Assembly (NCBI RefSeq): GCF_014217805.1
Contig: NZ_CP055156.1
Span: forward strand, 5,648,585-5,712,584
DNA length: 64,000 nt
Reading direction: 5' to 3'
DNA from: Adhaeribacter swui
Lineage (GTDB): Bacteria; Bacteroidota; Bacteroidia; Cytophagales; Hymenobacteraceae
Shown: piece by piece, positions 4,257 to 34,277 of the stretch
How positions within the stretch are numbered: position 1 is the first letter of the stretch
Layout of the letters: the number at the start of each line of letters is the position of its first letter
The notes under the pieces: model-generated
Told to the model about the DNA's origin: nothing
Databases searched by the model: none
What the model saw: only the letters and a program-made list of their open reading frames with translations
Translations under genes and position numbers: made by a program

Positions 4257-5093
4257 ATGAAATACTTGTTTCTGCTTCTGTTATTGATAGGTTTACATTC
4301 TACTGAATTCCAGGATGATCCCACCCGTACCCAAAACTTTCCGAAGGCAGAAGTGCGGGTGAAAGATTTACCTAAAAAAGAAAAAGTTTGGGTTTTTATC
4401 TTAGCGGGTCAATCGAACATGGCAGGTCGCGGACAAGTAGAGCCGCAAGATACCATTCCCAATTCCCGGATATTCACGATTAATAAACAAAACCAGTTAA
4501 TTCTGGCTAAAGAACCTTTGCACTTTTACGAGCCTAACTTAACCGGTCTGGATTGCGGACTTTCCTTTGGCCGAACTTTACTTCCGCAAATCCCTCCGGA
4601 TGTAAGTATTCTGTTAGTTCCTACGGCGGTAGGTGGCAGCTCCATTAGCCAGTGGCTCGGCGACTCAACGCACCGGCAGGTACCCTTGTTAACTAATTTT
4701 AAAGAGAAAGTAGCCCTGGCCCAAAAGCTCGGCAAAATACAAGGTATTTTGTGGCACCAGGGTGAAAGCGACGCTAACCCCAAGGATATACCTCTTTACC
4801 AGAGCCGGTTAACCAGCCTTTTTGCGCAACTACGTACTATTACAAAAAACAAAAACTTACCCATTGTGGCAGGTGAACTGGGTCTATTTTCCCAGAACCC
4901 AGAAAGTTGGCTTAAAATAAATCAGCAATTGCGCAACTATGCTAAAATTGATAAGAACTACCGGATAGTAAGCACCGCCGATTTAAGCCACAAAGGCGAT
5001 AGTATTCATTTTAACTCTACTGGGCAAAGAATATTGGGCCAACGCTTCGCGCAGGAATATCTAAAATTTAAAAAAATTAATTCTGCTAATTAG
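4257..5093 (+). CDS. Secreted sialate O-acetylesterase-like (SASA domain) esterase
   Basis: A 278-residue protein with a short signal peptide (YLFLLLLLIGLHSTEF). The SASA/SGNH catalytic elements appear in order: ILAGQSNMAGRG near residue 50 (Ser nucleophile in GQSNM), AVGGSSISQWLGDS near 125 (Gly/Ser block), GILWHQGESDA near 162, and DLSHKGDSIHFNSTGQ near the end, supplying the Asp/His pair. Family members remove acetyl groups from sialic acids or xylan-type sugars in the periplasm. The substrate cannot be read from sequence. Single gene. Confidence 0.85.
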   Translation: MKYLFLLLLLIGLHSTEFQDDPTRTQNFPKAEVRVKDLPKKEKVWVFILAGQSNMAGRGQVEPQDTIPNSRIFTINKQNQLILAKEPLHFYEPNLTGLDCGLSFGRTLLPQIPPDVSILLVPTAVGGSSISQWLGDSTHRQVPLLTNFKEKVALAQKLGKIQGILWHQGESDANPKDIPLYQSRLTSLFAQLRTITKNKNLPIVAGELGLFSQNPESWLKINQQLRNYAKIDKNYRIVSTADLSHKGDSIHFNSTGQRILGQRFAQEYLKFKKINSAN

Positions 5094-5262
5094 CTTTCGC
5101 TTAATTATTTACTGTTTACTTTATTTCTTAAAGCCAGGTTAAGTGCCGCTGTAGCTTTCTATTGTAAAACCAATTAACTTACAAGGCTTGGTGGTAAGAA
5201 TTGCCGGTAATACTTTAGGAGCTACTTAGCTAACAAACACCCAAGCCTTTACATTTTAAAAG

Positions 5263-5874
5263 ATGTACATTCCTAAGCTCAATGCCATGACCGATAAAGC
5301 CGAAATTATAGGCTTTATGAAACAATATAGCTTTGCTACCCTTATTACCGCCCAGGATAATGTACCCTCGGCCTCGCATTTACCTTTTATTATTGAAGAG
5401 CGGGAAGATTCAATTTTTTTAATCTCGCATTTTGCCAAAGCAAATCCTCAGTGGGAAGAAATAACCCAAAACCAGGTTTTAGTAATTTTTACCGAGCCGC
5501 ACGCCTATATTTCGCCGCAGCACTACGACCACGAACTTAACGTGCCCACCTGGAATTATTTGGCAGTGCATGCGTACGGCCAAGGCCGCTTAATTACCGA
5601 ACAAGTTAAAGCATTTGCGGCTCTCGAAACCATGATTAACACCTACGAGGCCGCTTACCAAACGCAATGGCAGCAATTACCTCCGGATTTTAAAACAAAA
5701 TTGCTAAACCGCATTGTAGCGTTCGAAATAGAAATTACCGATTTACAAGCCAAAAAGAAATTAAGTCGAAACAAATCCTCAACTGAAAAACAACGCATCA
5801 TTACGGCTTTGGAAAATAGCCCCCACGGTGTAGAGAAAGAAATTGGGCAATACATGCAAAAAGAATATTATTAA
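5263..5874 (+). CDS. PaiB-like FMN-binding protein
   Basis: The 203-residue protein has the PaiB family layout: MYIPKLNAM at the N-terminus, FATLITAQDNVPSASHLPF, a HFAKANPQW block, AYISPQHYDHELNVPTWNYLAVHAYG near the middle, and a C-terminal helix IVAFEIEITDLQAKKKLSRNKS. In Bacillus, PaiB is described as a negative regulator of sporulation and protease genes and has a split-barrel FMN-binding fold. In non-sporulating Bacteroidota the role is probably flavin-dependent or detoxifying rather than sporulation control. Single cytoplasmic gene. Confidence 0.85.
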   Translation: MYIPKLNAMTDKAEIIGFMKQYSFATLITAQDNVPSASHLPFIIEEREDSIFLISHFAKANPQWEEITQNQVLVIFTEPHAYISPQHYDHELNVPTWNYLAVHAYGQGRLITEQVKAFAALETMINTYEAAYQTQWQQLPPDFKTKLLNRIVAFEIEITDLQAKKKLSRNKSSTEKQRIITALENSPHGVEKEIGQYMQKEYY

Positions 5875-29060: not shown

Positions 29061-29132
29061 GGCCCGTTCGTCTAGGGGTTAGGACATCAGATTTTCATTC
29101 TGGTAACAGGGGTTCGATTCCCCTACGGGCTA
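29061..29132 (+). tRNA. tRNA-Glu (anticodon UUC)
   Basis: A 72-nt cloverleaf. The acceptor stem GGCCCGT pairs with ACGGGCT (one G-U at the end), the D arm holds TCTAGGGGTTAGGA, the anticodon loop TTTTCAT gives UUC, and the T arm is AGGGG-TTCGATT-CCCCT. The discriminator base is A, and CCA is not encoded (CTT follows). It is a lone tRNA with its own promoter and terminator. Confidence 0.96.
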
Positions 29133-29135
29133 CTT

Positions 29136-29514: not shown

Positions 29515-30162
29515 ATGGCCCAGGACACCAAAGAGGTAATTCAACAAAAATTCAGGCACTTAGAGGAATCTTTAGTGACCGAAATAAGTCAGGAGAGCGT
29601 AATACGGCAGTTAGATGAAGGGGAAAACGTGTTGCAAACCGGACAGTTTATCCGCTCTACCATTCTGGTGGCGGACGGGCTATTGAAAGTGTACCGCGAG
29701 GATGAAGAAGGCAATGATTTTTTGATGTACTACCTGCAACCTGGTGATGCCTGTGCCCTATCGATGATGTGTACCGTACGTAACGACCAGAGTGGCATCA
29801 TGGCACGGGCAGTAGTACCGACCGAAGTAATTTTAATACCAGCGCACCTGACCGAGAGTTGGTTAGGTAAATATAAAACCTGGAACCATTTTGTAATTTC
29901 TTCCTATCGGCAGCGGTTCGAAGAATTGCTCCAAACCCTGGATAGCGTGGCTTTTAAAGCCTTGGACGAACGCTTATTGTTTTACCTGAAACGCTACCAG
30001 AAAGTGCAAGGCAACGAAGTAAAATTGTCGCACCAGCAAATAGCCGAAGAGCTTAACAGTTCGCGGGAAGTAATTTCACGGTTACTCAAAAAACTAGAAC
30101 AGCGGGGTGCCCTGCAATTACACCGTAACTACATCGAAATTATTAAGCTCCCGGTGACTTGA
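29515..30162 (+). CDS. Crp/Fnr-family transcriptional regulator of the sulfur locus
   Basis: The 215-residue regulator has an N-terminal cyclic-nucleotide-binding-like barrel (about 25-120, LQTGQFIRSTILVADGLLKVYREDEEGNDFLMYYLQPGDACALSM), a dimerisation helix and a C-terminal helix-turn-helix at 171-198 (LSHQQIAEELNSSREVISRLLKKLEQRG). The recognition helix holds R184, E185 and R189 in SSREVISR, matching the R-E-x3-R arrangement with which Crp reads GTGA. The barrel lacks the Crp cAMP-binding R-S pair but has C80 and C86 in a Cys-x5-Cys pair that could sense oxidants or persulfides (inference). Its stop codon lies inside the operator of the next gene. Confidence 0.9.
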   Translation: MAQDTKEVIQQKFRHLEESLVTEISQESVIRQLDEGENVLQTGQFIRSTILVADGLLKVYREDEEGNDFLMYYLQPGDACALSMMCTVRNDQSGIMARAVVPTEVILIPAHLTESWLGKYKTWNHFVISSYRQRFEELLQTLDSVAFKALDERLLFYLKRYQKVQGNEVKLSHQQIAEELNSSREVISRLLKKLEQRGALQLHRNYIEIIKLPVT

Positions 30163-30197
30163 GTCACTGAACGCCTTTTTATAACCCAGTACCTTTG
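30154..30197 (+). promoter_or_regulatory. Crp-type operator plus -7 element for the TauE/SafE gene
   Basis: GTGACTTGAGTCAC at 30154-30167 is a 14-bp palindrome (GTGAC-N4-GTCAC), followed by TGAAC. The -7 element TACCTTTG starts at 30190, exactly 36 bp after the palindrome start. No TTTG occupies the -33 position; the palindrome edge lies there instead. That geometry centres the operator near -41 and predicts class II activation. The palindrome encodes the last two residues and stop of the regulator gene. Confidence 0.75.
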
Positions 30198-30215
30198 TAC
30201 TTATAAAAAATAGTC

Positions 30216-31016
30216 ATGGAAATACTGGGATATCTGGCCTCGGCCTTCATAGGAATTTCGTTGGGTTTAATTGGTGGTGGAGGCTCTATTCTTACCGTAC
30301 CTGTAATAGTTTACCTGTTTAACACCCCACCTTTACTGGCCACCTCCTACTCCCTTTTTATTGTTGGTTCCACCAGTTTAATTGGGTCCATTACTAACTA
30401 CCGTAAGGGATTGGTTAACCTGAAAGCGGCCCTTTATTTTGGCACCTCCTCCATTGTTACCGTTTTTATAACGCGTAAGTTTTTGGTGCCTGCTATTCCC
30501 AAAGAAATTGTAAAAATCGGTGGATTTACTCTTACCGAGTCTTTTTTAACCATGGTATTATTTGGGATGCTGATGCTCATGGCCTCCATGAGCATGATTA
30601 AAAAGCCCAAAGTAACCGCACCTGAGCGAGAATGCACGGATTGTGTCAGGTTTTTAAAGCTAGTAGGCTATGGAATAGCAATCGGATTGGTTACTGGCTT
30701 ATTAGGTGCCGGCGGTGGTTTTCTGTTAATCCCGGCTTTGGTGCTTTTAGTAAAGCTACCGATGAAGAAAGCCGTTGGCACCTCGCTAATGATCATTGCG
30801 CTTAATTCTCTGATAGGCTTTGCCGGCGATATCGGGCATTTTCCTATTCAATGGTCTTTTCTGCTTAGCATTACCTTTATTGCCATTGTTGGTATTTTCC
30901 TGGGCGGCTTACTGAGCAAAAAGATCCCCGGTAAAAAGCTAAAGAAAGGTTTTGGCTGGTTTGTTTTGTTAATGGGAATTTATATCCTTATCAAAGAGCT
31001 TTTACCTAATTTTTAA
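30216..31016 (+). CDS. Sulfite exporter TauE/SafE family membrane protein
   Basis: A 266-residue protein with about eight membrane segments in two homologous halves, each starting with a glycine-rich loop: ISLGLIGGGGSILTVPVIVYL near 16 and IGLVTGLLGAGGGFLLIPALVLL near 155. This is the TauE/SafE pattern of exporters for sulfite or sulfur-containing organic acids. It has its own Crp-type operator and lies between the regulator and the persulfide dioxygenase fusion. In Staphylococcus the cst sulfide operon also contains a TauE protein, which supports a role in sulfite or thiosulfate efflux here (inference). Confidence 0.9.
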   Translation: MEILGYLASAFIGISLGLIGGGGSILTVPVIVYLFNTPPLLATSYSLFIVGSTSLIGSITNYRKGLVNLKAALYFGTSSIVTVFITRKFLVPAIPKEIVKIGGFTLTESFLTMVLFGMLMLMASMSMIKKPKVTAPERECTDCVRFLKLVGYGIAIGLVTGLLGAGGGFLLIPALVLLVKLPMKKAVGTSLMIIALNSLIGFAGDIGHFPIQWSFLLSITFIAIVGIFLGGLLSKKIPGKKLKKGFGWFVLLMGIYILIKELLPNF

Positions 31017-31030
31017 TATTTCCAGCTTGT

Positions 31031-31074
31031 GTGATAAACATCACTGAACAGGGGTGCAGGAGAATATAAATTTG
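31031..31074 (+). promoter_or_regulatory. Crp-type operator plus -7 element for the persulfide dioxygenase-rhodanese gene
   Basis: GTGATAAACATCAC at 31031-31044 is a GTGAT-N4-ATCAC palindrome followed by TGAAC, as in the upstream operator. TAAATTTG (-7) starts at 31067, again exactly 36 bp after the palindrome start. It lies 91 bp before the gene start and 15 bp after the TauE stop. Confidence 0.78.
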
Positions 31075-31134
31075 TATTAAAATGGAAAAGGCATTAAAAT
31101 TTTAAAAATTTCATTTTTATAAAGTAGTTAACGC

Positions 31135-32478
31135 ATGAAAATACAACAGTTTGAAGATAAAGGATTAGCCCAATTCGGCTACGCCATCTTAAGTGAAAGT
31201 ACTAACGAAATCGTATTAATAGATCCGGCCCGGAATCCGCAGCCTTATTATGATTTTGCTGAAAAGAACAACGCCAAAATTGTAGGGGTAATAGAAACCC
31301 ACCCGCATGCCGATTTTGTAAGTTCGCACCTGGAAATACACCAGCAAACCGGAGCTATTATTTATGCCCATAGCCTGGTAGGTGCCGATTACCCGCATCA
31401 GACTTTTGACGAAGGAGCCGTACTTCCGATCGGGGAAGTTAAACTAAAATCGCTGCATACGCCCGGCCACTCTCCGGATGGCATCAGTATTATATTAGAG
31501 CACGACGGCCAAAACGTAGCGGTATTTACCGGCGATACCCTTTTTATTGGGGATGTAGGCCGGCCAGATCTCCGCGAAAGTGCGGGCAGCATTACGGCAA
31601 AAAGGGAAGAACTGGCCCGCCAGATGTACCACAGCACCCGGCAAAAATTAATGCAATTAAATGATAGCGTACTGGTGTACCCGGCGCACGGGGCTGGTAC
31701 ACTTTGTGGCAAAGGGCTGAAGGAAGCGAACAGTAGCACCATTGGGGCCGAGAAGCAGACTAACTATGCGCTCCAACCGATGAGTGAAGCAGAATTTGTG
31801 CGGATCATAACGGAAGATCAACCCTTCGTACCTAAATACTTTGGTTACGATGTAGGCCTTAACAAACAAGGCGCACCAGCCTATAAGCAATCTCTGCAAG
31901 AAATAAAAAGACTGGCTGTGAACGAGCTACCGGAAAACCAGAATATTTTAATAGTGGATGGGCGCCCCCAGGATGAGTTCAAAAAAGGCCACCCAAAAGG
32001 AGCGATTAATATTCAGAACGGAAACAAGTTTGAAACTTGGTTGGGCAGTATTGTGGGTCCGGAAGAGAAGTACTATTTAGTAGCTGAAACCGAAGAAAAG
32101 CTTAACGAGTTGCTGGAGAAAGCCGCTAAAATTGGGTACGAGTTGAACGTAGCAGGTGCCTTTGTTTATGATGGAGCCAAGGGGGTAAAAAGCAGCGAAT
32201 TTTCTAAACAAGCTTTCCAAACTAATCAGAAAGATTACACGGTAGTGGATATCCGGAACAGCAGCGAAACTAAGAGCGGAAGGTTTTTTGACCAAGCAAT
32301 CACCATCCCACTACCCGAATTAAGAGAGCGCGCCCATGTAATACCAACGGATAAACCGGTGGTGGTGCATTGTGCCGGGGGCTACCGATCAGCGGCGGGC
32401 AGTAGTATTCTGGAAAGTTTGCTACCCGTAGCGGTACTCGATATGGGTGAAGCGGTAACGGAGTTAAAGCAAATATAA
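31135..32478 (+). CDS. CstB-like persulfide dioxygenase-rhodanese fusion
   Basis: The 447-residue fusion has three parts. An ETHE1-type metallo-beta-lactamase domain (1-245) has T55-H56-P-H58-A-D60, H112, D134 and H185 as non-heme iron ligands and second-sphere residues, plus C191 in GTLCGKG. A degenerate rhodanese domain (268-345) lacks the active-site Cys. A C-terminal rhodanese (365-447) carries C413 in VHCAGGYRSA. This is the layout of Staphylococcus CstB, which oxidises low-molecular-weight persulfides to sulfite and moves sulfane sulfur to make thiosulfate. It should act in the cytoplasm to clear sulfide-derived persulfides. It has its own Crp-type operator. Confidence 0.88.
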   Translation: MKIQQFEDKGLAQFGYAILSESTNEIVLIDPARNPQPYYDFAEKNNAKIVGVIETHPHADFVSSHLEIHQQTGAIIYAHSLVGADYPHQTFDEGAVLPIGEVKLKSLHTPGHSPDGISIILEHDGQNVAVFTGDTLFIGDVGRPDLRESAGSITAKREELARQMYHSTRQKLMQLNDSVLVYPAHGAGTLCGKGLKEANSSTIGAEKQTNYALQPMSEAEFVRIITEDQPFVPKYFGYDVGLNKQGAPAYKQSLQEIKRLAVNELPENQNILIVDGRPQDEFKKGHPKGAINIQNGNKFETWLGSIVGPEEKYYLVAETEEKLNELLEKAAKIGYELNVAGAFVYDGAKGVKSSEFSKQAFQTNQKDYTVVDIRNSSETKSGRFFDQAITIPLPELRERAHVIPTDKPVVVHCAGGYRSAAGSSILESLLPVAVLDMGEAVTELKQI

Positions 32479-32568: not shown

Positions 32569-33126
32569 ATGTTGGAATTGCTTAAACAGCCTTGGCCTTG
32601 GTATACTTCGGGGGCAGCAATTGCTTTTATTATGGTATTACTCCTGTTGTATGGCAAATCATTTGGCGTATCATCTAATCTAAGGACCCTGTGTACGCTA
32701 GCCGGCGCGGGTAAAAAAGTTAAATTTTTTGATTTTAATTGGCGCACTCAGAAATGGAACTTACTCTTTTTATTCGGCTCGGTGCTAGGGGGCATTATTG
32801 CTGCTACCGTCCTGAAAAGTGAGCATCCCTTGCAATTATCAGAAGCTACGGTAAATGACTTACAGACTTTAGGAATTAACTTTGACGGACAATTAAATCC
32901 TGCTCAACTATTTGGACCGGTCTTTTTCTCTTCGCCGAAGGGATTTCTGATCTTGCTTGTTGGGGGCATATTGGTAGGATTTGGTGCCCGGTACGCCGGT
33001 GGTTGCACTTCGGGCCATGCCATCAGTGGCTTATCTAATCTGCAAATTCCTTCTTTGGTGGCAGTGGTAGGTTTTTTCGTTGGCGGCTTAATCATGACGC
33101 ACTTTTTATTACCCTTAATTTTCTAA
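32569..33126 (+). CDS. YeeE/YedE half-transporter, first subunit
   Basis: This 185-residue membrane protein has about four to five segments (WYTSGAAIAFIMVLLLLYG, LLFLFGSVLGGIIAATVL, FLILLVGGILVGFGARYAGG, LVAVVGFFVGGLIMTHFLLPL). It carries the conserved FGARYAGGCTSGHAISGLS loop with C146. Full-length YeeE/YedE proteins import thiosulfate or related sulfur compounds by passing sulfur along paired cysteines; here the protein is half length and followed four bases later by the other half. It sits 90 bp after the persulfide dioxygenase fusion, with an A/T-only motif in between and no separate promoter seen. Confidence 0.88.
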   Translation: MLELLKQPWPWYTSGAAIAFIMVLLLLYGKSFGVSSNLRTLCTLAGAGKKVKFFDFNWRTQKWNLLFLFGSVLGGIIAATVLKSEHPLQLSEATVNDLQTLGINFDGQLNPAQLFGPVFFSSPKGFLILLVGGILVGFGARYAGGCTSGHAISGLSNLQIPSLVAVVGFFVGGLIMTHFLLPLIF

Positions 33127-33129
33127 GAC

Positions 33130-33543
33130 ATGAAAGGATTAAAATATATAACTACGGGTATCCTGTTTGGGATCATCATGGCGAAATCTGAGGCTATTTC
33201 GTGGTACCGCATTCAGGAAATGTTTCGCTTTCAGTCGTTTCATATGTACGGTATTATTGGCACGGCGGTAACCTTGGGCACCATAGCGGTTTATTTAATT
33301 AAAAAGTTTCGCATCAGAGATACCCAAGACAATCTGATAGTTTTTCACGATAAAGACCGAACCTGGTTTAGGTATATTATTGGTGGAACCATATTTGGAT
33401 TAGGTTGGGCCTTAACCGGTGCCTGTCCGGGTCCGATGTTTGTGAATGTAGGCTATGGGTACGGGGCAATGTTGCTTATAATCTTCGGCTCGTTATTGGG
33501 TACCTACTTTTATGGGGTAGTAAAAGATAAAATTCCGCACTAG
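33130..33543 (+). CDS. YeeE/YedE half-transporter, second subunit (DUF6691-like)
   Basis: The 137-residue partner of the preceding gene starts three bases after its stop codon, indicating translational coupling. Membrane segments include YITTGILFGIIMAKSEAI, MYGIIGTAVTLGTIAVYLI, YIIGGTIFGLGWALTGACPG and YGAMLLIIFGSLLGTYFYG. The conserved G-W-A-L-T-G-A-C-P-G-P loop holds C99. The two halves probably assemble into one channel for thiosulfate or another sulfur anion (inference from the YeeE family). Confidence 0.88.
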   Translation: MKGLKYITTGILFGIIMAKSEAISWYRIQEMFRFQSFHMYGIIGTAVTLGTIAVYLIKKFRIRDTQDNLIVFHDKDRTWFRYIIGGTIFGLGWALTGACPGPMFVNVGYGYGAMLLIIFGSLLGTYFYGVVKDKIPH

Positions 33544-33650: not shown

Positions 33651-34277
33651 ATGAATGCTATTACGGAGAACATAAAAAAAATACCAGGGTGGATCATAAC
33701 CGGGATAGTTATTGGGGCACTGTACCTCACCGGGCTGCATACCGAAGTTATTGGTCAGCTGCAAAGAATAATTTTGGCTACAGGTTTCATAAAACCTACT
33801 ATAGAAGAAATAAATGAAAATACCTCTCCCTCCGGCAATACCGCCCCCACCTTGGTTGCTGATTATAATTTTAATCTGCTCTCCCTTAACGGGGAGCAGA
33901 CTTCTCTAGAATCGCTTAAAGGGAAAGTAATATTTTTAAATTTCTGGGCAACCTGGTGCCCGCCGTGCATCGCCGAAATGCCCAATATTCAAAGTTTGTA
34001 CGAAAAGGTCAATTCAGATAAAATAGCGTTTGTAATGGTATCCTTGGATCAAGACCCGACTAAAGCGCAGAAATTTATTCAGAAAAAAGGCTTCACCTTT
34101 CCGGTTTATACCCATAATGGCTCTTTGCCAATAAGCTACGAAACGCAAGTTATCCCAACAACCTTTATTATTTCGCCCGAAGGGCAAATCGTGACCCGCA
34201 AAGACGGCATGGCTGATTACGACAATCAGGAATTCCGGGAATTTTTGCAGCGCCTGACTCAACCAGGTAAAATTTAG
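33651..34277 (+). CDS. Membrane-anchored TlpA-like thioredoxin
   Basis: The 208-residue protein has an N-terminal membrane anchor (WIITGIVIGALYLTGL), a short linker and a TlpA/ResA-type thioredoxin domain from about 70. The active site is C103-P-P-C106 in FLNFWATWCPPCIAEMPNI, and the cis-Pro loop is TQVIPTTFIISPEG. The domain should face the periplasm and reduce disulfides or protein-bound persulfides. Its place 107 bp after the YeeE pair suggests it serves the sulfur locus, though it could also be a general cytochrome-maturation thioredoxin. Confidence 0.88.
   Translation: MNAITENIKKIPGWIITGIVIGALYLTGLHTEVIGQLQRIILATGFIKPTIEEINENTSPSGNTAPTLVADYNFNLLSLNGEQTSLESLKGKVIFLNFWATWCPPCIAEMPNIQSLYEKVNSDKIAFVMVSLDQDPTKAQKFIQKKGFTFPVYTHNGSLPISYETQVIPTTFIISPEGQIVTRKDGMADYDNQEFREFLQRLTQPGKI

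Follow-up and report, generated by a model that had tools for sequence, protein, structure and literature searches.

We analyzed a window of DNA (the whole stretch studied here, 64,000 nucleotides) from contig NZ_CP055156.1 of Adhaeribacter swui, a member of the Bacteroidota. It contains a gene for a Crp/Fnr-type regulator followed on the same strand by genes of sulfur-handling families, with two palindromic operators among them:

29515..30162, + strand, Crp/Fnr-family regulator, 215 aa (PF13545 and PF00027 above cut-off)
29752..29772, + strand, codons Cys80 to Cys86 of the regulator (Cys-x5-Cys), in the nucleotide-pocket region of other Crp proteins
30154..30167, + strand, operator 1, GTGACTTGAGTCAC, 5' of the TauE gene, spanning the regulator stop codon
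30167..30169, + strand, CTG, proposed degenerate -33 element of promoter 1 (from base conservation)
30190..30197, + strand, -7 element of promoter 1, TACCTTTG, start predicted near 30202
30216..31016, + strand, TauE/SafE-family exporter, 266 aa (PF01925, E 2.9e-41)
31031..31044, + strand, operator 2, GTGATAAACATCAC, 5' of the dioxygenase fusion
31044..31046, + strand, CTG, proposed degenerate -33 element of promoter 2 (likewise)
31067..31074, + strand, -7 element of promoter 2, TAAATTTG, start predicted near 31079
31135..32478, + strand, MBL-fold protein of the persulfide dioxygenase type with two rhodanese domains, 447 aa (PF00753, two PF00581 stretches)
32569..33126, + strand, YeeE/YedE half A, sulfur transport (PF04143; same neighbourhood in relatives)
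33130..33543, + strand, YeeE/YedE half B, sulfur transport (PF04143; same neighbourhood in relatives)
33651..34277, + strand, TlpA-like thioredoxin (PF08534, PF00578; near the cluster in several relatives)

The TlpA-like thioredoxin gene is possibly the last member of the group. For the dioxygenase/rhodanese fusion the nearest solved structures were 3tp9 (residues 2-427) and 3r2u (residues 3-429); the structure record of the latter names it simply "metallo-beta-lactamase family protein", and we take it to be CstB of Staphylococcus aureus. Upstream of the regulator there is a tRNA-Glu (TTC) gene (window 29061-29133). A mini-ORF of seven codons (window 31082-31105) lies in the dioxygenase leader, just downstream of the predicted start, and none was found at the corresponding place in one relative (G002). 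A scan for sigma-70-type promoters gave 7 sites against 10.0 in shuffled sequence, and one for terminators 6 against 6.1.

A preliminary description of this DNA had pointed to two GTGA-N6-TCAC palindromes, both followed by TGAAC, to a TAnnTTTG element starting exactly 36 bp after the start of each palindrome (30190 and 31067), and to the position of the first palindrome across the TGA stop codon of the regulator (30160-30162). All of these are found on direct reading of the sequence. The overlap with the stop codon was considered as a mechanism and set aside as incidental, since just 3 of the 36 TauE sites of the named relatives (second set, below) overlap a stop. The claim that the -33 box is missing held in part: TTTG is absent at both promoters, but a conserved TG that directly follows the palindrome, 20 nt ahead of the -7 element, has the look of a degenerate -33 box. 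In the 54 sites of the first comparative set (below), T was found at position 15 in 40 and G at position 16 in 49, while the mirror bases upstream of the palindrome were A in 3 and C in 11 of the 54; because these mirror bases rarely match, the conserved TG is not a matter of palindrome symmetry. We read it as a relic of a -33 TTG box, with a weaker conservation in the second set (57% and 59%).

In the class II promoters of Escherichia coli CRP, the GTGA-N6-TCAC site is centred at about -41.5. According to an excerpt of PMC9723704, TAnnTTTG sits at -12 to -5 in Flavobacterium, and because of this the centre of the A. swui palindromes would fall at -41.5. The spacing thus agrees with that of a class II activator site provided that TAnnTTTG occupies -12 to -5, the start sites being predictions. 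From these predicted starts the leaders would be of 14 nt (promoter 1) and 56 nt (promoter 2). The 49th base from the palindrome start is a purine in 46 of the 54 sites; the predicted start 1 (30202) is a T, one base ahead of an A, which counts against it. As for autoregulation in the window, no site with up to two mismatches and a -7 element at +36 was found in the intergenic stretches leading to the regulator, YeeE A, TlpA, DoxX and VOC genes. Exact palindromes 5' of the regulator were seen in three relatives (L045, L058 and L214). The last of them, Chitinophaga rupis, has at 4894 the palindrome GTGATAAAAATCAC, followed at +36 by TAGCTTTG and placed 41 bp ahead of the regulator open frame, and this arrangement makes autoregulation possible there.

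The exact GTGAN6TCAC occurs twice in the window (mean of 0.24 in shuffled sequences, with 1 of 100 shuffles reaching two). With the rate of TAnnTTTG in the window (81 per 128,000 positions), the probability that the second site matches the offset of the first is about 6e-4. For both sites at a preset +36 it would be 4e-7; the offset, however, was chosen post hoc, and for this reason the weight is carried by conservation. By itself the palindrome shows no enrichment in the 6.2-Mb genome of A. swui, where it was found at 14 places against 26 for a reversed control pattern. In a search of the genome, GTGAN6TCAC-N16..28-TAnnTTTG gave two matches, both at this locus, and the reversed control none; for the other 12 genomic palindromes, neither strand had a -7 element at +36. 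The surroundings of two of the palindromes, G000:C1:41782 and G000:C3:4575909, are identical over the bases compared, and may be part of a repeated element present on two contigs.

We compared the locus with 58 genomes of relatives. A gap-tolerant pattern gave 59 matches in the 59 genomes (A. swui included), 43 of which have gap 22, where the other gap lengths average 1.3 and the reversed control has 10 matches in all; the gap-22 matches came from 21 genomes, every one with a match to the regulator. The strict form (TCACTG, fixed gap) was found at 32 sites in 17 of the 59 genomes, and its control at none. Thirty-eight stretches were then taken around regulator homologs and some outlying motif matches, and exact palindromes up to 250 bp before an open reading frame of the same strand were counted. 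Of the resulting 73 distinct palindromes, 54 (two of them the window's own) precede labelled genes: TauE in 24 cases, dioxygenase in 24, YeeE A in 3, the regulator in 2 and TlpA in 1. These 54 sites were not selected by the -7 element, except for three from motif-fetched stretches and the TlpA one, whose stretch had been lengthened toward a motif match. All 54 show nAnnTTT at +36 (A at 38, TTT at 41 to 43), and in 52 the following G is present. The first base of the element was T in 36, G in 14 and C in 4; GAnnTTTG at +36, as in G003, G004 and both cluster promoters of G001, was missed by the strict pattern. Among the 19 palindromes before unlabelled genes, the +36 element was present in 10 (genes of 108 aa among them) and absent in 9. 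Several relatives have a further operator before a gene of about 108 aa beside YeeE, a rhodanese where scanned (L037, whose neighbours include a DoxX/DsrE protein and a peroxiredoxin). The paired operators that the preliminary description expected at orthologous loci do therefore recur with the offset unchanged. Exporter and dioxygenase each have a site of their own in front, also in the relatives, consistent with the separate control proposed for them. Operators before genes of the persulfide dioxygenase, TauE and YeeE/YedE types are what we took to define a reactive-sulfur regulon.

A second set was obtained by scanning named genomes with the regulator alignment alone and keeping the best 80 of at least 535 confirmed relatives; it includes Pontibacter, Telluribacter, Niastella, Pedobacter, Chitinophaga, Aquirufa, Hymenobacter, Flavobacterium and others, and has no 44-mer in common with the first set. 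A TauE or dioxygenase gene lies within the fetched stretch in 72 of the 80 loci. The upstream regions of Flavobacterium often carry GTGA-N6-TTAC, and with the relaxed operator GTRAN6TYAC we found 99 sites before labelled genes in the 80 loci. In 66 of them (18 of the GTGA-N6-TTAC form) [TGC]AnnTTTG stands at +36, in four instances it lies at 25, 29, 37 and 50, once each, and in 31 there is none from 20 to 60. A +36 site with the relaxed operator is present in 53 of the 80 loci, and the 27 loci that have none count against the proposal; this share is not blind, the relaxed forms having been chosen after seeing the first set and the Flavobacterium upstream regions, whereas the distribution of offsets is independent of that choice. 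Five altered palindromes gave 10 sites in all, none with the element at 36, a weak control with too few sites.

Homologs of the dioxygenase (E 1e-60) are present in 54 of the 59 genomes of the first set, frequently as paralogs, and these provide a control for the linkage of operator and regulator. We took about 480 bases upstream of 68 further dioxygenase genes, chosen blind to the motif, and counted as a site a palindrome, exact or with one mismatch, with [TGC]AnnTTTG at +36. No site was found at the 22 unlinked dioxygenases of genomes with the regulator (21 with a close homolog, and one in G033), nor at the 32 dioxygenases of genomes lacking a regulator match; where a genome has a distant regulator homolog alone, 1 of 14 had a site (L132, with one mismatch). 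Two exact palindromes (L096, L141) were not accompanied by the element. In loci whose regulator matches at 60% or above, the site is found before 18 of the 24 dioxygenases and, among TauE genes, before 19 of 20, so that it is missing at 6 linked dioxygenases and 1 linked TauE gene, which counts against the proposal; in those whose regulator matches at 36 to 59% it stands at 5 of 5 dioxygenases and 3 of 3 TauE genes, and seven further stretches of this class contain no TauE or dioxygenase gene of 200 aa. The contrast between 18 of 24 linked and 0 of 54 elsewhere has a Fisher p of 6e-13 (8e-12 if the gene of G009 is counted as unlinked with a site), and of the 34 genomes that have a regulator match 17 contain the strict motif, versus 0 of the 25 that have none (p 2e-5), although all of these p values are too small, the genomes being related.

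Two motif-fetched stretches, of G009 and G046, do not enter the linkage counts. That of G009 holds a second cluster, located 240 kb away from the regulator (L064:6472-7418), in which TauE and dioxygenase both have the site; in that of G046 it is found at TauE and at neither of two dioxygenases. In G001 a TlpA gene 12 kb from the regulator is preceded by an operator with the +36 element (L067:5137). Because the G009 cluster and the G001 TlpA site are far from the regulator, action in trans is suggested. Six distant homologs (L054, L055, L059, L060, L062 and L063) had no adjoining palindrome among the matches listed. One unlinked dioxygenase copy (G025:C1:2757084-2758418) carries one in-frame TAG, which could reflect a pseudogene or a fault in the assembly.

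Pfam, an AlphaFold2 model (mean pLDDT 87, pTM 0.65) and Foldseek agree that the regulator has the N-terminal cyclic-nucleotide-type barrel and the Crp-type helix-turn-helix of the Crp/Fnr superfamily. The nearest solved structure is 3dv8, a Crp/Fnr protein of Eubacterium rectale. R184, E185 and R189, named in the preliminary description, are correct in the translation, and over 27 aligned regulators C80, C86, R184, I187 and R189 are invariant and E185 nearly so. All 80 named regulators have R-E-x3-R, and together with the GTGA-N6-TCAC-type operators this would place the protein among the GTGA-reading type. It does not look like a cAMP-dependent CRP. Taking E72 and R82 to be the cAMP contacts of E. 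coli CRP, the Glu falls at a gap in the profile alignment, and at the Arg position the 80 have R in 3 cases, K in 33 and T in 21, with others in the rest. The best family and fold matches are all Crp/Fnr, and none places the protein in the CstR, SqrR/BigR or FisR families (CsoR, ArsR and sigma-54 activator folds). The two cysteines of the pair are the only ones in the regulator; in the model Cys80 lies just ahead of helix 81-89 and Cys86 inside it, and this helix aligns with the pocket region of CRP. The Cys-x5-Cys is present in 79 of the 80 named loci. Regulators of the cst, bigR and fisR kind are marked by a dithiol that turns into a di- to tetrasulfide with the inducer, and the pair is a candidate for such a dithiol. 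The exception, Hymenobacter piscis (L174, regulator at about 5001-5612), has the first cysteine alone and keeps the operator with the -7 element at +36, and provides a natural test of the two-cysteine idea.

On these sequence data we propose that the two GTGA-N6-TCAC palindromes, with centres near -41.5, would be bound by the Crp/Fnr-type protein, which would activate two housekeeping-sigma promoters with TAnnTTTG at -12 to -5 and a vestigial -33 box. That the neighbouring regulator does bind both palindromes and activate both promoters seems to us quite probable. Transcript 1 would carry the TauE exporter, and transcript 2 the CstB-like dioxygenase/rhodanese, probably together with both YeeE halves; the dioxygenase would produce sulfite and the exporter would remove it. 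Because of the gene content, the most likely signal would be reactive sulfur (persulfide or polysulfide), and the proposed sensor is the pair Cys80 and Cys86, which lie where other Crp proteins hold their ligand. Granted binding and activation by this regulator, we consider a sulfur signal rather likely. A wider proposal, which we hold with about equal belief and doubt, is that a Bacteroidota clade of Crp/Fnr proteins has turned the pocket into a Cys-x5-Cys persulfide/polysulfide sensor and acts as a class II activator with the -33 box folded into its operator. If true, this would be a further protein family with evolved reactive-sulfur sensing, and an activating one working on the main sigma factor.

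The alternative that survives best keeps binding and activation by the regulator, which would act from -41.5 in response to something else: general redox, a metal, an iron-sulfur cluster, nitric oxide, sulfite or thiosulfate. Cysteines of Crp/Fnr proteins do serve other signals, it is the gene content and nothing else that points to sulfur, and the H. piscis member has a single cysteine; yet the identified target genes belong to sulfur-handling families, and two cysteines are few for a four-ligand iron-sulfur cluster. We regard this as possible but clearly the weaker choice. It is unlikely that the regulator is instead a repressor, in the manner of CstR and BigR, with the palindrome covering the -33 region and blocking the polymerase until sulfur stress. 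The operator does extend to the -33 position, but repressors tolerate shifts of their operators, and the fixed offset and the poor -33 box fit an activator better.

Even less probable is that the palindromes are bound by another Crp-type protein of the cell, with no part for the neighbouring regulator. Many members of the family use GTGA half-sites, and HcpR, which shares the Crp/Fnr fold (HcpR of Porphyromonas gingivalis, 9day, matches the regulator by fold at 14% identity), has in Desulfovibrio the CRP-like consensus wTGTGAnnnnnnTCACAw (excerpt of PMC1274295). HcpR is defined by its control of hcp in nitrosative stress. The same excerpt gives a different HcpR2 motif for Bacteroides, GTAAC-N4-GTTAC, and ties HcpR to hcp, whereas the operators of the A. 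swui type precede mostly sulfur genes. Against such a protein, the operators follow the studied regulator across genomes, mostly at its own locus. Besides, PF13545 at E 0.001 finds in the A. swui genome just the regulator, a response-regulator/Crp fusion with K-E-x3-R and one protein that is GntR-like by eye, although a Crp protein with a weaker domain could escape. As for chance palindromes, the lack of enrichment of the palindrome alone speaks for them, but the common offset and, chiefly, the conservation across families rule them out for practical purposes.

The gene content resembles that of the cst, fisR and bigR systems, and the layout resembles that of CRP class II promoters. The cst operon of S. 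aureus contains a TauE-type exporter and CstB, and with CstR it likewise combines a dithiol regulator, a TauE-type exporter and an MBL/rhodanese fusion. CstR is a CsoR-type repressor (excerpt of PMC9774590), whereas the A. swui regulator is of Crp type and probably an activator. In Acinetobacter baumannii, persulfide dioxygenases, TauE and YeeE/YedE are under the sulfur-sensing regulators FisR and BigR, as described in the available portion of PMC7315123. FisR is a sigma-54 activator and BigR an ArsR-family repressor, and the regulator studied here is neither. The same portion reports a Crp protein of A. baumannii that is heavily persulfidated with unknown consequence; it is a relative of the global CRP/Vfr, and no tie to the FisR/BigR operon is reported there. 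E. coli CRP class II promoters are alike in GTGA-N6-TCAC and in the R-E-x3-R helix of the protein, and differ in that the cAMP contacts are not conserved in A. swui and that the Bacteroidota -7 element replaces the -10 box. Finally, 3dv8 has Cys-x5-Cys at the equivalent place in a record that gives no function, and from this case the Cys-x5-Cys kind of Crp protein may reach beyond the Bacteroidota.

The open literature yielded no Crp-type reactive-sulfur regulator of Bacteroidota among the matches listed, with subscription papers largely outside this search, and a prior description of the regulator is possible. One review names CstR, SqrR, BigR, PigS and FisR (PMC9774590, in excerpt), and the term "Bacteroid" is absent from its text. 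Little was found on the sensing and removal of sulfide-derived species in Bacteroidota, and for them the locus supplies a regulator with its operator, start sites as predicted and the hypothesis of a two-cysteine sensor, which is testable since the same locus is present in culturable hosts (Pontibacter, Pedobacter, Flavobacterium).

The strict spacing between operator and promoter also opens a test of Crp activation at the TAnnTTTG promoters of this phylum. Over 395 genomes of the phylum, GTGAYN4RTCAC followed by the element at gaps of 12 to 32 gave 102 matches, 42 of them at gap 22 and 19 at gap 23, with a mean of 3.0 per gap other than 22 (gap 23 included). Given the matches at gap 23, close spacing of operator and promoter appears not to be unique to the studied regulator, and part of the signal probably comes from other Crp-type regulators. 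The palindrome GTGACTTTTATCAC was seen at gap 23 from TAnnTTTG in several species of a single genus (g36 of family f24; G070, G151, G264, G319, G331 and G362), possibly as another Crp-type regulon.
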